A DNA stretch of 64,000 bases, taken from NCBI GenBank assembly GCA_012512265.1, contig JAAZEM010000058.1, forward strand, positions 1 through 64,000. Direction: 5' to 3'. The stretch comes from Armatimonadota bacterium. GTDB lineage: Bacteria > Armatimonadota > JAAZEB01. Positions 5,761-51,140 of the stretch are shown here, piece by piece. The number at the start of each line of letters is the position of its first letter. The stretch's first letter is position 1. The translations under genes and the position numbers were made by a program. The notes below the pieces were generated by a model. The model was not told where the DNA came from. It did not search any database and was given only the letters and a program-made list of their open reading frames with translations.

Positions 5761-6298
5761 AACCGAACCCCTCTCTTGCGTATCCCCAGGAAGAGCTCTT
5801 CCTGGCTCAACGAGGCCGCCACTCCCCTGGGATTCCGAAATAAGGAGAGGACCGCCCTCATGCGCGGAGCTCGAAGCTCCGCGCTGCTTTCCGGCAAAGC
5901 CCCTTGGGGCTTCTCCTCCCAGCCACCGCCGTCTTGAGGCTTCTGGGAGTATCCCCAACCCAGCCCGGCAGGGCTTCGCTCGCAAGCAGCGCGGTGATTT
6001 ATCGCCGCGCGCCGGATTGCGCCCTGCCACCGAGGCTTCGGATTCCTTAGTGTCGGAATCTCAGGCCATTCCCTCTCGTGGCAGCCTCTCGGCGTTCTTC
6101 GCGACGAGGCACGGCCCTCTTCCAGCCGGCCTCCAGGCGCCAGGGGGGCGCCCTGCGTCTCCAGTTCGGTAGCCCGGGGGGAACTCTCCTGCCGTGGGCC
6201 GAATCTTCACGCGTGTGTGCCCGACTGTTCATGACCAGATCGCGGAGCAGCCGCCGAATGCCAGGCCCCGCCAAGGCGGGCACGCCGTCGGAGGTTTC
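5761..6298. other. Intergenic region holding repeat R1 copy A
   Basis: This 538-bp gap lies between the divergent GH2 gene and the ACT-domain gene. It contains the 236-bp R1 element (5828-6063). The remaining 235 bp (6064-6298) hold no convincing gene, promoter or repeat; only the GGAGG site before the ACT gene is recognisable. Confidence 0.6.
5828..6063 (-). repeat. Dispersed repeat R1, copy A (MITE-like, 236 bp)
   Basis: One of three copies, the others at 34865 and 50899. The ends are inverted repeats: TGGGATTCCGAAATAAGGA at 5828-5846 and the complement of TGAGATTCCGACACTAAGGA at 6044-6063. The interior matches the other copies at nearly every position and contains several short hairpins, including GCGGAGCT-TCG-AGCTCCGC. 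No open frame is conserved among the copies. Length, terminal inverted repeats and lack of coding capacity fit a non-autonomous transposable element; no flanking target duplication is evident. Confidence 0.8.
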
Positions 6299-11134: not shown

Positions 11135-11309
11135 TTAGCCCGAAGTATTCACCAGAATACTTCAAAAAGAGAAGTCTCTTGTCTGGTGACACACCGTTGC
11201 CGCTACAAGCGCCCGGAGGCAGGGTGTTTTCGGGGGCAATGCCCACGAACCCGTGCCACGCCTGGCAGTAAGACTTCTTTTCATTATTCTGATGAATAAT
11301 GCGGGTTAG
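11135..11309. repeat. Dispersed repeat R2, copy 1, between sbp and cysT
   Basis: A 175-bp element whose ends are imperfect inverted repeats (TTAGCCCGAAGTATTC at left; complement of the right end CTAACCCGCATTATTC). Each end continues into a perfect hairpin: GAAGTATTC-ACCA-GAATACTTC (11142-11163) and CATTATTC-TGAT-GAATAATG (11282-11301). A related, partly duplicated copy is at 41538. It carries no gene and interrupts the sulfate operon between the binding-protein gene and the permease genes. Terminal hairpins recall IS200/IS605 ends, inverted termini recall MITEs; the class is unresolved. Confidence 0.75.
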
Positions 11310-11371
11310 TGGCGTCCGGGGCTGCACCGCGGGTGGCGGCGCCGACCCATGGCCGCAAAAGCCCCGTGGCA

Positions 11372-34864: not shown

Positions 34865-35100
34865 TGAGATTCCGACATAAGGAGTTCGAAGCCTCGGAGG
34901 CAGGGCGCAACCCGTCGCGCGGCGATAAATCACCGCGCTGCTTGCGAGCGAAGCCCTGCCGGGCTGGGTTGGGGATACTCCCAGATGTCTCAAAAAGGCG
35001 GTGGCTGGGAGGAGAAGCCCCGAGGGGGCTTTGCCGGAAAGCAGCGCGGAGCTTCGAGCTCCGCGCGTGCGCGCGGTCTTCTCCTTATGTCCGAATCCCA
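34865..35100 (+). repeat. Dispersed repeat R1, copy B (MITE-like, 236 bp)
   Basis: Terminal inverted repeats TGAGATTCCGACATAAGGA (34865-34883) and TCCTTATGTCCGAATCCCA (35082-35100). Internal hairpins include GCGGAGCT-TCG-AGCTCCGC (35046-35064), GCCCC-GAG-GGGGC and AGCCC-TGCC-GGGCT. It matches copies at 5828 (inverted) and 50899. Confidence 0.82.
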
Positions 35101-35491
35101 GCGATGTGGCTGGAACTGCAATCTACTGGCTGATCGCCACGGGTTCCCGCCTACGATGGGTGCTCGCGAGATCGGCCACCGCAATGCGCTGGGTGGTTCC
35201 ACAATGGCCGGCCGCGATGCGTTTACGGCCCGGGTGCTGGGTAGCAGCGCGAGTTTTCAGGCATGCGCGCCTATTGGTCCGGCCCGCCCCCTCTTCCATT
35301 CCAGCGGCGCTGGGGCATGCCGCCGGGCGGGGTTTACCACGCATGATGCGGTGGTATCACTGGTTGTCGAGAGGGCCAAAAGACGCTGCTGCCACTGGCC
35401 CGCCGCCGGATACGTTGGCGGTGGGGTGACGCATCGATTGGCGCCGGGCTATCGCGCCCGACCGGAGCCCTCGGGAACGGGAGCACGCCGA

Positions 35492-39807: not shown

Positions 39808-41541
39808 ATGCAAACGCTACGAATTGGCCTGTATCAGATGAACGCCTGGGTGGGCGATCTGGACCGGAACGTCCAGACGATCCTGACGGCCCTGGAGGAG
39901 GCCCGCGCCCGAGGGGTGGACGTGGTTGCCTTTCCAGAGCTCGCGATCACTGGGTGCCCGCCCGACGACTTGTTGCTGAGACCCCGCTTTCTCCAGGAAA
40001 ACCGGCGCGCGCTCGAGCGCGTGGCCGCGGCGACCACGGGCCTGACGGCCATCGTCGGCTTCGTCGACTTCCAGGAGAGCCTTTTCAACGCTGCCGCCGT
40101 CCTCCATAATGGCCATCTCGCCGGGGTACACCACAAGCGCGTTCTCTCCAGGTCGGGTGCGTTTGACGAGACGCGCTACTTCCAGCCGGGCGAGGAAACC
40201 CGCGTCTTCTCGCTGGGTGGCGTCGCTTTCGGCGTTACCATCGGCGAGGAGGGCTGGGCTCCAGATGGGCCGGCCAGCACCCAGTGCCTCCTGGGAGGGG
40301 CGCAGGTGGTTTTCAACCTCAGCGCCGCGCCCTTCGTGATGGGCCAGCGGCCCGCTCGCGAGCGGAGGCTTGCTATCCGGGCCGCCGAGGATGCCTGCTT
40401 CCTCGCGTATCTCAACGGCACGGGCGGCCAGGACGAGCTCGTCTTTGATGGCGGCTCGGTGCTCCTCGGGCCGGATGGCGAGATGCTCCTGCGCGCGCCC
40501 GTCTTTGCCGAGACGCTGGTGGTCGCCGATCTTGACCTCTCGAGCGTGACCCGCGCGCGCCTGCGGGATCCCTCCTGGGGGCAGCGTCGGCGGGCGCGCC
40601 AGGCCGGAGGCGAGGCGGTGGAGCGGGTGATCCTGGAGCCGGTTGCACTGAGGCCGGACCGCCCACCGGTGGCGGCGGAATCGGCTCCCGTGCCGGATCG
40701 CCTGGAAGAGGTGTACACCGCGCTGGTGACCGGCACACGCGACTACGTGACCAAGAACGGCTTCAAGGATGTGGTGATCGGGCTCAGCGGCGGAATCGAC
40801 TCGGCGATGGTCGCGTGCATCGCCGTCGATGCCCTAGGCAAGGAGCGCGTCGTCGGGGTCAACATGCCCTCGGTCTACTCGTCGGAAGAGACGCGCGCGG
40901 ACGCCCGCCTGATTGCCGAAAACCTGGGGATTCGCTTCCTGACGATCCCGATCCAGGAGACGTTTGAGGCATACACGCGCCAACTCGCCGAGGTGTTTGC
41001 CGGTCGCAAGCCCGATCTCACCGAGGAGAATCTGCAGGCGCGCATCCGGGCCAACCTGCTGATGGCGCTCTCCAACAAGTTCGGCTATCTCGTTCTCTCC
41101 TCGGGCAACAAGAGCGAGGTGGCCGCGGGTTATGCTACGCTCTACGGCGATACGGCCGGCGCCTTCTCCCCGATCAAGGATGTGCCCAAGACGCTCGTAT
41201 GGGCGCTCGCGGAGTATCGGAATACGCTCAGCCCGGTGATCCCGGAGACCACGATCCGGCGTGAGCCGACGGCGGAGCTGCGCCCCGACCAAAAGGACAC
41301 CGACTCACTGCCGCCTTACGACCTTCTCGACAGGTTCGTGGCGCTCTACGTCGAGGAAGAGCGGAGCGCCGATGAGATCATCGGCCTCGGATACGACGAG
41401 GAGCTGGTCCGGCGCGTGACCCGCATGATCGACCGCGCCGAGTACAAGCGTCGGCAGGCGGCGCCCGGCGTGAAGATCACCGCGAGGGCGTTTGGCATCG
41501 ACCGACACGTGCCGCTCACTCACGGCTATCGCGAGCTCTAA
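39808..41541 (+). CDS. nadE: NAD+ synthetase with nitrilase-like domain lacking the catalytic Cys
   Basis: A 577-aa protein with the two-domain layout of glutamine-dependent NAD+ synthetase. The N-terminal nitrilase-type domain (about 1-270) has E44 (FPELAITG) and K110 (HHKRVL). The position of the nucleophilic cysteine (normally ICEDxW) reads 'TIGEEGW', with Gly146 (codon GGC). The synthetase domain has 'VIGLSGGIDSAMVACIAVD' (ATP PP-loop) and 'SSGNKSEVAAGYATLYGD', all intact. It should therefore adenylate and amidate deamido-NAD+ with free ammonia but probably cannot hydrolyse glutamine. GGAGG lies 10 nt before the ATG. Its TAA stop lies inside the left end of repeat R2. Confidence 0.94.
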   Translation: MQTLRIGLYQMNAWVGDLDRNVQTILTALEEARARGVDVVAFPELAITGCPPDDLLLRPRFLQENRRALERVAAATTGLTAIVGFVDFQESLFNAAAVLHNGHLAGVHHKRVLSRSGAFDETRYFQPGEETRVFSLGGVAFGVTIGEEGWAPDGPASTQCLLGGAQVVFNLSAAPFVMGQRPARERRLAIRAAEDACFLAYLNGTGGQDELVFDGGSVLLGPDGEMLLRAPVFAETLVVADLDLSSVTRARLRDPSWGQRRRARQAGGEAVERVILEPVALRPDRPPVAAESAPVPDRLEEVYTALVTGTRDYVTKNGFKDVVIGLSGGIDSAMVACIAVDALGKERVVGVNMPSVYSSEETRADARLIAENLGIRFLTIPIQETFEAYTRQLAEVFAGRKPDLTEENLQARIRANLLMALSNKFGYLVLSSGNKSEVAAGYATLYGDTAGAFSPIKDVPKTLVWALAEYRNTLSPVIPETTIRREPTAELRPDQKDTDSLPPYDLLDRFVALYVEEERSADEIIGLGYDEELVRRVTRMIDRAEYKRRQAAPGVKITARAFGIDRHVPLTHGYREL

Positions 41542-41783
41542 CCCGAAGTATTCACCAGAATACTTCAAAAGAAGGCTCTTGCCTGGTGGTACACCGTTGC
41601 CGCCACAAGCGCTTAGCCGGAAGTATTCACCAGAATACTTCAAAAGAAGGCTCTTGCCTGGTGGCACGCCGCTGCTGCCACAAGCGCCTGGCGGCAGAGT
41701 GTTTTCGGGGCTGTGCCCAAGAGCCAGCGCCGCGCCTGGCAGAGAGACTTCTTTTCATTATTCTGATGAATAATGTGGGCTAG
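41538..41783. repeat. Dispersed repeat R2, copy 2, with internal tandem duplication
   Basis: Left end CTAACCCGAAGTATTC (41538-41553), right end GAATAATGTGGGCTAG (to 41783), inverted to each other. The left hairpin GAAGTATTC-ACCA-GAATACTTC occurs twice (41545-41566 and 41620-41641) because a 75-bp unit is duplicated in tandem. The right hairpin CATTATTC-TGAT-GAATAATG is at 41756-41775. A further partial copy of the internal segment (GCGGCAGAGTGTTTTCGGGG) follows at 41783-41825. The element overlaps the nadE stop codon. Confidence 0.78.
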
Positions 41784-42015
41784 CGGCAGAGTGTTTTCGG
41801 GGCTGTGCCCACGAACCCGATTCTGAGAACAGGGTAGCCTAGCTGGCCGGCGGCGCGCGCCGCCGGGACCAGGGCTTGACACCCCATGTCCTCCCGGGCT
41901 ACAATACCGCCAAGCGCCCGGGGTGGAGTGCGCGTTGCGCCCACGGGTTCGGTAGGGCCTGAGAACGTGGGCCATACCCCGCACGCGCCGGGAGCCCCGG
42001 GGGAGGGAGCGAGCG
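41542..42015. other. Intergenic region with repeat R2 and prepilin promoter
   Basis: A 474-bp gap. It is filled mostly by repeat R2 copy 2 and its partial internal duplicate (to about 41825), then the promoter at 41876-41905 and a leader of about 105 nt before the third prepilin gene. No gene is seen. Confidence 0.55.
41876..41905 (+). promoter_or_regulatory. Promoter of prepilin gene 3
   Basis: TTGACA (41876-41881), an 18-bp spacer and TACAAT (41900-41905) upstream of the gene at 42016. Confidence 0.75.
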
Positions 42016-42783: not shown

Positions 42784-42813
42784 TGGACGCGGGTGGGATC
42801 CCAGGGGTATAAT
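42784..42813 (+). promoter_or_regulatory. Candidate promoter of polA
   Basis: TATAAT (42808-42813) with a weak -35 (TGGACG, 42784-42789) 18 bp upstream. Because the -10 overlaps an in-frame ATG at 42812, the translation start is more likely the ATG at 42836. Confidence 0.5.
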
Positions 42814-42835: not shown

Positions 42836-44776
42836 ATGAAGAGACCGCAGTTGAGCCTGTTCGATAACCTGGAGCCGGAGCCATGGCCCAACCATCCGGA
42901 AGCGCGCGCGCCACAGGCGGATCCCGCCGCGGCGGCGGCTGAGCCGCCACGGCACGTGTCCCAGCTCTCCCTCTTCACCGAGGATGAGGGTGGCGCGGAG
43001 CGTGACCTCCCGGAGGGCTTCCGCCTCGTCGATACAGAGGATGCCCTGCAAGAGCTGATCCGCGAGCTGGCTGCGGCGCCGCTCTTCGCCTTCGATACCG
43101 AGACAACGGCGCTCGACCCGATGGTCGCGGAGCTGGTAGGCTTGAGCTTCTCCACGAGGCCGGGGAGCGCGAGTTATGTGCCGGTTGGACACACGCGCGG
43201 CCGGCAGGTGGAGCGGTCGCGCGTGCTGGACGCGCTGAGACCGGTGTTCGAAGATGGAACTCGCCCGAAGGTGGGCCACAACCTGAAGTTTGACCTGCGC
43301 GTGCTGGAGCGGGCAGGCGCGCGCGTCGCCGGGCCATATTACGACACGATGATCCTGGCGCATCTCGTGCGCGAGGAGGGGAGCCACGGCCTGAAGGAGT
43401 GCGCGCGCCACTACCTCGGGCGCGAGATGACCTCCTTCGATGTGCTCACCTCCCGCGGCCGGCACCCACTGCAGTCACTCCCGACCGCGCTCGTGGCCCG
43501 CTATGCCTGTGATGACGCCGATGCGACACTCTCCCTGTGGGAGAAGCTCTCCCCCGAGATCGCCGCCGCGGCGCTGGAGCGGGTCTTCCAGCTGGAGAGC
43601 GAGCTTCTCCCGGTGGTGGCGCAGATGGAGAGCGACGGCGTCGCCATGGATGCCGGCTACCTGACTGCGCTGGCAACCGATCTGGAGAAGCAGATCGAGG
43701 CAACGGCGGAGGCCTGCTACCAGGCGGCGGGAACCCGGTTCAACCTGAACTCGCCGCGGCAGATCGCGACCATCCTCTACGAGCGCCTGGGGCTGAACGC
43801 GACTCGGCACACAACGATGGGGCCCTCCACCGGAGAGCCGGCGTTGAAGGCGCTTGCTGGAACCCATCCACTCCCCGCGCTCATCCTGGAGCACCGGGAG
43901 CTGAGCAAGCTCCGGAGTACCTACGCGCTGGGGCTGTTGCGGAGTATCTCGCTGGAGACGAGGCGCGTTCATCCCAGTTTTCAGCAGATCGGCGCCCGGT
44001 CGGGGCGCTTCAGCTGCGCCCACCCGAATCTGCAAAACCTGCCCAAGGACTCGGCGAACACGATCCGGAGGGCGTTCGCGGCGGCGCCGGGGCACCTGCT
44101 CGTCTTCGCGGATTACTCGCAGATTGAACTGCGCATTCTGGCCCACTACTCGGAAGATCCGGGTCTGCTTGCTGCCTTCCGAGAGGGGGAGGATGTGCAT
44201 GCGCGCACAGCAGCGGAGATCTTCCGGGTGCCGCTCGATTCGGTGACATCTGTTCAGCGGCAGGTTGCCAAGGGAATCAACTTTGGGCTGGTTTACGGCA
44301 TGAGCTCCCAGGGGCTCGCGGCGCAGCTCGGCATCTCGCAGGCGCAAGCAGAACGCTACATCGAGGCCTACTTCGGGCGCTACGCTGGTGTGCGCCGCTA
44401 CATGGCCGAGATGGTCGCGCGGGCACGCGAGCAGGGCCATGTGACCACGCTTCTGGGCCGGAGGCGGCACGTGACTGGCCTCGATTCGTCCAACCCGCGC
44501 ATTCGGGGGCAAGCCGAGCGGCAGGTGATCAACGCGCCGATTCAGGGGAGCGCCGCCGATATCATCAAGCTCGCGATGGTCCGGCTGGCACCGCACCTCC
44601 CGGCTTTCCGGGCGCGAATGATCCTGCAGGTTCACGACGAACTAGTAATAGAGGTGCCCGAGGAAGAGGCGGAGGGTCTGCGGCGAACGATCGTCTCGGT
44701 GATGGAGCAGCCGCCCACGCCAGAGTTTCGGGTTCCCCTCTGCGTGGAGGTTGAGATGGGAAGCACCTGGCGCTAG
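42836..44776 (+). CDS. polA: DNA polymerase I lacking the 5'-nuclease domain
   Basis: A 646-aa family A polymerase. A 60-residue tail contains QLSLF twice (Q5-F9 and Q43-F47), the consensus of beta-clamp-binding peptides. The 3'-5' exonuclease (about 60-250) has all DEDDy residues: D87 and E89 in 'FDTETT', the 'GHNLKFDLRVL' Asp, and 'YACDD'. The polymerase domain shows motif A 'VFADYSQIELRILAHYS', motif B 'RQVAKGINFGLVYG' and motif C 'LQVHDELVIEVP'. Usual Pol I is about 900 aa and begins with a FEN-type 5'-nuclease; that domain is absent, with no sign of a frameshift upstream. It should proofread and extend but not remove RNA primers. Confidence 0.95.
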   Translation: MKRPQLSLFDNLEPEPWPNHPEARAPQADPAAAAAEPPRHVSQLSLFTEDEGGAERDLPEGFRLVDTEDALQELIRELAAAPLFAFDTETTALDPMVAELVGLSFSTRPGSASYVPVGHTRGRQVERSRVLDALRPVFEDGTRPKVGHNLKFDLRVLERAGARVAGPYYDTMILAHLVREEGSHGLKECARHYLGREMTSFDVLTSRGRHPLQSLPTALVARYACDDADATLSLWEKLSPEIAAAALERVFQLESELLPVVAQMESDGVAMDAGYLTALATDLEKQIEATAEACYQAAGTRFNLNSPRQIATILYERLGLNATRHTTMGPSTGEPALKALAGTHPLPALILEHRELSKLRSTYALGLLRSISLETRRVHPSFQQIGARSGRFSCAHPNLQNLPKDSANTIRRAFAAAPGHLLVFADYSQIELRILAHYSEDPGLLAAFREGEDVHARTAAEIFRVPLDSVTSVQRQVAKGINFGLVYGMSSQGLAAQLGISQAQAERYIEAYFGRYAGVRRYMAEMVARAREQGHVTTLLGRRRHVTGLDSSNPRIRGQAERQVINAPIQGSAADIIKLAMVRLAPHLPAFRARMILQVHDELVIEVPEEEAEGLRRTIVSVMEQPPTPEFRVPLCVEVEMGSTWR

Positions 44777-44877: not shown

Positions 44878-46959
44878 TTGAGGATCGAGAGAGAGAAACT
44901 CCATCCGTCCGCCCTGGAGGTGGCCGCGCGCTTGCGGAGCAACTATGCCGATGTGCCGCTGGTCGCCCTGGGGCAGACGGTGTTTTGGGACGAGCCGGTG
45001 AAGGCGGCGCTGTGTATGGTGCTCGAAGCGCTTGCCCCGGGCTCGCATACCTTTGCGATTGGCATCAACGACCACGACTACTTCTCGAAGACATCCGCGC
45101 CTTTGCCCACCGACGCGCCCTTTGCCATCCTTGAGCATAACGATGGCACCACGCACGACCTGTGGGTGGCAACCGGCGAGCTCTCCATGCTCTTTGGCGG
45201 CGAGACGGTGCTCACGCGCGAGCGCCTCCACGGGTGTGGCGTTGAGGTGGAGAAGGTGGCCAAAGGCTGTCCCGAAGGCCGCGAGGCGTGCATCGACCGG
45301 ATCACCGCCGCTTGGGGGTGGCGAGGGATCGCGCAGACGGGGGATCACCGGCACATCGCCCACGAGATTCGCCTGAGCGACGTGCTTCCGTGGCTGACCG
45401 AGATCCTGGAGTGGGGCTTCCGCGAGAGTGCCGCCCTGCTAGAGGGGGAGGATGCGCGCGAGTCGGCCGAACGCTTTGGCGAGGAGGTGGTGGAGTGGCT
45501 CCGCCGTTTCGACCACGAGCACCCGGGCGCACTCCTCTCCGATGCCTATCAGGAGGCGCACCGGCTCTTCTTCCGCAAGCTGGCCGGGTGCAATCCCGAC
45601 CGCGTGGCGACCTTCACCTCCACCGATCTCTTCCTCTTCAACCGCGAAACCGTAGAGCGCCCGCGGTTCGCCCTCCTCAACCTCTTCCTGAAGCCGGAAT
45701 CGCGCGAGATCGCCTGTGCCGCCTACGATGCCGCCGTCGAGGGAAGCAACACCTACACGCTCGACCGCTTTGGCGAGGGCGCCATTCCGTTTGATCTGGT
45801 GGTGCCGGCGGGACGGGGTACCTTGCGCATCCTGGACGATGCCGTGGTGGTGGAGACCCCGGAGCCGATCCGGATGCCGGTGCCTAGGCGCATCGAGAGC
45901 GCGCGCGAACTGGCGGAAGTGGTCGAGGATCACTTTGGCCAGAACACGACGCTCATCGGCAAGGGACATGTTTTCGTCTGCATGGTGACCGCCGAGGCGA
46001 TCCTGGTGTTCCACGAGAGCGGCTCTGCCTACGTGCATCGCACGGCGCGCCTGATGCAGACCCTCGCCGATCGCGGGTTCTCGGTGCCGCTTTACCCGAT
46101 CCTGCGGATCCGTCACCACACCTGGGACGCCCTCGCCGGATGCGGCGTCCGGTTCCGGCTGCCGGAGCACCTTGCCGCCGCTTTTGGGGCGCCGGTGGTC
46201 ACGGCGACGGAGTTCGCGACGCGCTGGCAGGAGGTGGTGGACGCGGAGAAGCGCCTGCTCCAGGAGATCTCGGCGCTCTCGAGCCCGCGCGAGTTGGTCT
46301 CGTTCCTCGGTGCCCGAGACGATGGCGAGTGGCTGCGGCGCCTGGAAGAGTACACGCGGGCACACGACCTCCTCCTGGAGATCCGCGACCGCTCGCGCGT
46401 CTACGAAGAGCGCAGCCGGCAGATCTACGAGGAGATCCAGCGGCTGAAGAGTGAAGCCCTGGAGATGGAGCGAGAGAAAGGCGAGAACTTCCGGCGGACG
46501 ATCAAGCCGTTGCGCGAGCGCCTCTTCGAGCTGGCTCAGGAGGGCGTCGTTGATGGGCCCGAGGTAGAGGAGTTGCAGCGCCAGATTGAGGCGCACGAGG
46601 CGCCTCGGGCGCACGTGGACGCGGAGATTCGCGCGCGGCGCGAGCGCGTGGCTGCCCTGGAGAACGAGGCGAAAGAGGTGCGCAAGGCGCGCATGGAGAA
46701 CGAGAAGGGCCCCGCGGCAGTGGCCGCGCGCCAGGCGATTGCCGAGGTGGAGAAGGAGGCAGAGCGCGCCAAACTCCAGCTCGTTCGTCGTGCCCTCTTG
46801 GTCTCGCTCGGGCTGCCCGCGTGCAACCTGCGCCCAACGGCGTGGTGGTTCCCCCTGGTCGATCCCAGCGGCGAGTGGTTCCGGAACCTGGCGCACCGGA
46901 TGGAGCTGCGCTTCGAGCGCCTCGGCCCCGTGGACCCGGCCACCGGAGGCGGCGCGTGA
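44878..46959 (+). CDS. Unknown 693-aa protein with C-terminal coiled coil, coupled to dapF
   Basis: I do not recognise this protein with confidence. The N-terminal half is globular ('LVALGQTVFWDEPVKAALCM', 'FAIGINDHDYFSK', 'LEHNDGTTHDLWVATGELSM'). Residues about 480-650 are a long charged coiled coil. The order GQ...P...K then DHD, with a terminal coiled coil and 'LGLPACN', faintly recalls the BshC cysteine-adding enzyme of bacillithiol synthesis, but identity is low and this is speculation. The TTG at 44878 has GAGGGAG six bases upstream. Its stop overlaps the dapF GTG (GTGA), so the two are translated together. Confidence 0.8.
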   Translation: MRIEREKLHPSALEVAARLRSNYADVPLVALGQTVFWDEPVKAALCMVLEALAPGSHTFAIGINDHDYFSKTSAPLPTDAPFAILEHNDGTTHDLWVATGELSMLFGGETVLTRERLHGCGVEVEKVAKGCPEGREACIDRITAAWGWRGIAQTGDHRHIAHEIRLSDVLPWLTEILEWGFRESAALLEGEDARESAERFGEEVVEWLRRFDHEHPGALLSDAYQEAHRLFFRKLAGCNPDRVATFTSTDLFLFNRETVERPRFALLNLFLKPESREIACAAYDAAVEGSNTYTLDRFGEGAIPFDLVVPAGRGTLRILDDAVVVETPEPIRMPVPRRIESARELAEVVEDHFGQNTTLIGKGHVFVCMVTAEAILVFHESGSAYVHRTARLMQTLADRGFSVPLYPILRIRHHTWDALAGCGVRFRLPEHLAAAFGAPVVTATEFATRWQEVVDAEKRLLQEISALSSPRELVSFLGARDDGEWLRRLEEYTRAHDLLLEIRDRSRVYEERSRQIYEEIQRLKSEALEMEREKGENFRRTIKPLRERLFELAQEGVVDGPEVEELQRQIEAHEAPRAHVDAEIRARRERVAALENEAKEVRKARMENEKGPAAVAARQAIAEVEKEAERAKLQLVRRALLVSLGLPACNLRPTAWWFPLVDPSGEWFRNLAHRMELRFERLGPVDPATGGGA

Positions 46960-50898: not shown

Positions 50899-51135
50899 TG
50901 AGATTCCGATCATAAGGGATCCGAAGCCTGGGAGGCAGGGTGCAACCCGGCGCGCGGCAATAAATCACCGCGCTGCTTGCGAGCGAAGCCCTGCCGGGCT
51001 GGGTTGGGGATACTCCCAGATGTCTCAAAACGGCGGTGGCTGGGAGGGGGAGCCCCGCAGGGGATTTGCCGGAAAGCAGCGCGGAGCTTCAAGCTCCGCG
51101 CGTGCGGGCGGCCTTCTCCTTATGTTGGAATCCCA
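50899..51135 (+). repeat. Dispersed repeat R1, copy C (MITE-like, 237 bp)
   Basis: Left end TGAGATTCCGATCATAAGG (from 50899), right end TCCTTATGTTGGAATCCCA (51117-51135), inverted to each other. The interior is nearly identical to copies A and B. The hairpin GCGGAGCT-TCA-AGCTCCGC keeps its stem with a changed loop. Its distance to the neighbouring -35 element (18 bp) equals that of copy B. Confidence 0.82.
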
Positions 51136-51140
51136 GGCTT

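Follow-up and report, generated by a model that had tools for sequence, protein, structure and literature searches.

A short PolA of an Armatimonadota bacterium carries two clamp-type motifs and no 5'-nuclease domain

What might a bacterium do with a polymerase that is, in effect, a natural Klenow fragment bearing two clamp-type motifs? The question is raised by a polA-like gene in a stretch of Armatimonadota DNA of 64,000 nucleotides, called the window here, whose product we refer to as the short PolA (Table 1). The initial annotation of the locus saw in it a rewired polymerase for Okazaki fragments or repair, in which a double clamp tether had replaced the 5'-nuclease, with a separate nuclease encoded elsewhere. 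What that annotation said of the protein itself has stood, namely the loss of the nuclease, the intact catalytic motifs and the two clamp-type motifs; the Okazaki role with a separate nuclease has not. We think it probable that the short PolA is an accessory, clamp-tethered, proofreading polymerase that fills gaps beside a normal Pol I, in a role like that of Pol II.

Table 1. Features of the polA-like gene and its surroundings, in window coordinates
Feature	Position	Strand	Remarks
polA-like gene, 646 aa	42836..44776	+	ATG at 42836, stop at 44776; disordered tail, 3'-5' exonuclease and family A polymerase, without 5'-nuclease
N-terminal tail, residues 1-55	42836..43000	+	predicted disordered, pLDDT <50
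Clamp-type motif 1, QLSLF, residues 5-9	42848..42862	+	QPSLF in the orthologue
Clamp-type motif 2, QLSLF, residues 43-47	42962..42976	+	QPSLF in the orthologue; occupies the linker-motif position of many Pol I proteins from Chloroflexota and Bacteroidota phyla
3'-5' exonuclease domain, residues 63-242	43022..43561	+	PF01612; DEDDy intact
Family A polymerase domain, residues 275-645	43658..44770	+	PF00476; catalytic residues intact
TATAAT, possible -10 element	42808..42813	+	consensus match only

A Pfam search of the protein found the exonuclease and polymerase domains and no third one; the 5'-nuclease families PF02739 and PF01367 are absent. All five residues of the DEDDy exonuclease (D87, E89, D153, Y223 and D227) are kept, as are D426, K479, Y487, H600, D601 and the other polymerase residues that were checked. 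The nearest solved structures by sequence are E. coli Pol I and its Klenow fragment, and the predicted fold matches them with a TM score of 0.83-0.85 over the query. In the AlphaFold2 model, built with 30 sequences, pLDDT is mostly above 90 beyond the low-scoring tail. Where does the protein begin? An alternative in-frame ATG at 42812 would add eight residues, and because it overlaps the TATAAT sequence, which the window has in just one other place on its + strand, the start given in Table 1 is likelier. The gene 3' of the polymerase, at 44878-46959 (+), begins with TTG and encodes 693 aa without a Pfam match.

Are the two QLSLF sequences of the tail more than accidents of composition? When the 58 residues of the tail region were shuffled 200,000 times, 36 of the shuffles contained QL[SD]LF and none contained it twice or more, so the pair reported by the initial annotation is real and beyond chance. 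In the 5-Mb genome, read on both strands and in all frames, the DNA pattern for Q-L-S/T-L-F occurs in 17 places, two of which lie in this gene. The sole orthologue found, from a sister genus (genome G001), has 648 aa, is 64% identical to the short PolA and keeps both motifs in position as QPSLF. Leucine 2 is thus not conserved, and we count the proline at this position against our preferred reading; the key positions 1, 4 and 5 of QxxLF are all retained. The clamp-motif consensus is QL[S/D]LF, in its broader form QxxLF, and positions 1, 4 and 5 weigh most (PMC12309361). Between the two proteins the motif residues are identical at 8/10 positions, the remaining tail at 13/46. One might suppose that the gene is a decaying, functionless fragment of polA with incidental motifs, since it is present in just two genomes and its binding to the clamp is something we infer. 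To this we give hardly any credence: two genera whose proteins are 64% identical both have an unbroken frame, the catalytic residues are all kept, and the motifs are conserved well above the rest of the tail.

The same genome offers other proteins for comparison. Its DinB has QLSLF in the C-terminal part, and its RNase HII (PF01351; L203:1474-2337 (-), on contig C117) has QLTLF, a possible clamp motif, near the C-terminus. On the strength of these two proteins, QLSLF would seem to be the clamp motif that this genome uses. DnaN is encoded in the genome, and a QLSLF peptide binds the clamp of B. subtilis with a KD of 3.8 uM and that of E. coli with submicromolar affinity (PMC12309361). The short PolA has the features of a β-clamp client, with QxxLF-type motifs in a segment predicted to be flexible and their conservation in the sole orthologue found, and would presumably bind the clamp through one or both motifs of its tail. 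Two further occurrences of the motif were seen in the genome. A metallo-β-lactamase-fold protein, YycJ/WalJ-like by eye (contig C18, L198:598-1518 (+)), terminates in QLSLF, possibly a clamp motif, and in a putative DNA methyltransferase-like protein (L206, contig C141) QLSLF lies within a low-complexity stretch.

Does the short PolA replace Pol I? Contig C16 of this genome carries the gene of a PolA of 890 aa, with PF02739 (E 2.4e-60), PF01367 and PF00476. It forms a clade with 100% support with the PolA proteins of two other members of the family (G001 and G002), and that clade rules out contamination as its source; by this phylogeny the bacterial family has inherited the C16 PolA vertically as its Pol I. 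Its exonuclease has lost 5/5 of the DEDDy positions, all of which the short PolA keeps. The reading in which a clamp-tethered short PolA, together with a stand-alone 5'-nuclease, has taken over Okazaki-fragment maturation has in its favor the clamp-type motifs and the missing nuclease domain. We nevertheless hold it to be highly improbable, as a full-length PolA of the vertical lineage, with an intact-looking 5'-nuclease, is present in the same genome, which is what the initial annotation itself had named as telling against replacement. The other observation that it had named as refuting, close orthologues devoid of the motifs, was not made. Nor was a stand-alone 5'-nuclease found; the sole match to PF02739 in the genome is the C16 PolA itself. 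Pol II (PolB, family B) was likewise not found in this genome, and two DnaE-type polymerases were.

The activities of Pol I thus appear to be split over two proteins, with proofreading in the short PolA and the 5'-nuclease in the C16 PolA. Is such an arrangement peculiar to this genome? None of the vertical Pol I proteins tabulated from the phylum has the full DEDDy set. A second type of PolA, full-length, with an intact 3'-5' exonuclease and separate from the exonuclease-dead Pol I of vertical descent, occurs in the phylum, in several families besides this one, and was found in G002 (contig C172, L130), G035, G005, G007, G016, G017, G074, G087, G100, G101 and G207; some of these genomes have both types together. 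G002, the third family member, has no short form and carries instead the full-length, exonuclease-active protein on C172. An exonuclease-active PolA therefore recurs beside an exonuclease-dead one, full-length in some genomes and short, with clamp-type motifs, here. In the genome of the window, the division of labour between the two PolA proteins is unusual but understandable.

How might the two proteins work together? The C16 PolA, with its nuclease kept and its proofreading residues lost, would serve in primer removal and nick translation. Anchored to the β clamp by one motif of its flexible tail, or by both, the short PolA would stay at primer ends and would fill gaps processively and accurately, at repair patches, at post-replicative gaps and at ends left by DinB, which it would extend or correct. 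We propose processive, accurate filling because proofreading is kept, the 5'-nuclease is absent and a clamp tether is likely; a polymerase so constructed could fill gaps and could not carry out nick translation. Nicks left by the short PolA would then be handed over to the full-length PolA and ligase for removal of flaps or primers and for sealing. This hand-over is suggested by the complementary endowments of the two proteins, Pol I having a nuclease without proofreading residues and the short PolA the reverse. Both the gap-filling role and the hand-over are steps that we infer.

Why two motifs? They could raise affinity for the clamp, or they could fill both clefts of one clamp dimer. In E. 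coli, the α and ε subunits of Pol III are described as occupying both clefts of the clamp dimer (PMC13220808). A stronger version of the idea, which we regard as doubtful, is that the two motifs, 33 mostly disordered residues apart, would sit in both clefts at once, so that the short PolA, as a bivalent, clamp-locking family A polymerase, would hold the clamp against DnaE and DinB and supply the proofreading that the cell's own Pol I has lost. The motifs might instead be a general recruitment tag, and the short PolA a back-up or translesion-extension polymerase that works with DinB on the clamp. The identical QLSLF of this genome's DinB speaks for such a partnership, as does the fact that E. 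coli Pol II has roles of this kind (PMC12926913); among the genes nearby, however, none was seen that would link it genetically to DinB or to the damage response, and we consider the partnership unlikely.

The preferred reading, an accessory gap-filling polymerase, may be set against the polymerases already described. With the Klenow fragment of E. coli Pol I (PolA1) the short PolA has in common the exonuclease and polymerase domains, the fold and the catalytic residues; where the 5'-nuclease of Pol I would be, it has a tail of 55 residues that contains the two clamp-type motifs. Of the domains expected of PolA1, the Pol I orthologue, it thus has the exonuclease and the family A polymerase and lacks the FEN-like domain. 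A PolA1-like minor group, family A polymerases that also lack the FEN domain, has been described (PMC12926913), and going by its description the short PolA fits that group in outline; the group is discussed for cases in which a canonical Pol I is missing or has been replaced, whereas the present genome has one. PolA2/APEX likewise lacks the FEN domain, has a QxxLF motif and is accessory to Pol I, as we propose for the short PolA (PMC12926913). It differs in having a dead exonuclease, its motif lying in a loop within that domain, where the short PolA has a live exonuclease and its motifs in the N-terminal tail; moreover, PolA2/APEX is described as restricted to Actinobacteria and the present genome belongs to the Armatimonadota. 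In a 2026 survey of >3000 genomes, the Actinobacterial PolA2 was called the first family A polymerase of bacteria in which a clamp motif has been identified (PMC12926913), and Pol I of B. subtilis is said to contain a QLxLF motif (PMC12309361, 2025). E. coli Pol II resembles the short PolA solely in its manner of working, with proofreading, a clamp motif and no 5'-nuclease; it belongs to another polymerase family (B), of which the short PolA is not a homologous member. We therefore liken the short PolA to accessory proofreading polymerases in how it would work, and claim for it no membership of a named accessory group.

Could the gene have come from a phage? The phage-related PolA3 shares with the short PolA an intact exonuclease and the lack of a FEN domain (PMC12926913), and a domesticated prophage gene of the PolA3 type might account for both. 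Several observations make this very unlikely. The best match among solved structures is Klenow, diverse phage polymerases match the short PolA at ~22-32%, and the top matches from phage collections (up to 44%) resemble bacterial PolA. A search of 50,697 phage records and a scan of viral contigs brought up no close relative from a phage. Nor was a phage or prophage link seen that would tie the short PolA to PolA3. The composition of the gene equals that of the adjacent genes, and every neighbour to which Pfam assigned a family has a housekeeping function (PEP carboxykinase, aldolase, NAD synthase, DAP epimerase, GcpE and PheS). On these two grounds, composition and neighbours, any transfer of the gene is not recent.

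Where, then, did the short PolA arise? Among the matches listed from 291 genomes of the phylum, a nuclease-less PolA with this tail is present only in the genome of the window and in G001, two genera, and one of these two genomes is 80% complete. No further orthologue was found in 81 Chloroflexota, 33 Bacteroidota and 33 Pseudomonadota genomes or in a scan of one collection of genome contigs. The short PolA falls among bacterial PolA proteins, and its nearest neighbour is unstable between trees: a careful tree places it with Chloroflexota (support 91/80), a quick one with Pseudomonadota (support 95). AU tests did not reject its being a truncated vertical PolA (p 0.47) or a truncated form of the second, exonuclease-active type (p 0.55). 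No neighbourhood is shared with G001, as the downstream genes differ and the G001 contig stops upstream, and the comparison of the two showed no operon partner or conserved neighbourhood that would point to a repair pathway. The window also contains dispersed repeats. One, of ~226 nt, lies at 34876-35101 and 50911-51136 and, inverted, at 5818-6064, in copies 86-93% alike; translated stretches similar to it occur on other contigs (e.g. L114). In the other, a 75-nt unit is followed by an 86-nt unit, at 41539-41688 (the 75-nt unit in tandem) with 41702-41787, and again at 11139-11213 with 11228-11313.

Is a clamp-type motif at this place confined to the short PolA? We took a census of full-length Pol I for the motif Q-x-[SDGNT]-[LM]-F in the ~100 residues that precede the exonuclease domain. 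The motif is present in this linker in 20/30 loci from Chloroflexota (L214-L243), in 12/30 from Bacteroidota (L244-L273) and in 0/30 from Pseudomonadota, the 30 loci of each phylum being the best-scoring of a wider draw, so that the fractions may not hold phylum-wide. In the phylum of the window it was found in 1/34 vertical Pol I proteins and 0/11 of the second PolA type. By shuffling, ~0.2 motifs at most would be expected in each set; outside the linker there are 0 motifs in ~26,000 residues each of Chloroflexota and Pseudomonadota Pol I. Five further Bacteroidota proteins (L249, L252, L254, L261 and L272) have, by eye and with some start codons as predicted, a motif near the N-terminus, ahead of the 5'-nuclease. 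Motif 2 of the short PolA, just ahead of the exonuclease domain, occupies the linker position, and motif 1 resembles the N-terminal one; the census proteins differ from the short PolA in keeping the 5'-nuclease and in having, for the most part, one motif. These counts suggest that Pol I of Chloroflexota or Bacteroidota commonly bears a clamp motif in a disordered segment. For Bacteroides Pol I, no report of a clamp motif was found in the literature searched, outside of which most subscription journals lie. One consequence of the census is that the manner in which Pol I is recruited to gaps becomes directly testable in Chloroflexota and Bacteroidota. Another possible site for a clamp motif is seen in PDB 6vde, whose molecule is named DNA polymerase I and which has QLSLL in an insertion of the exonuclease-like domain.
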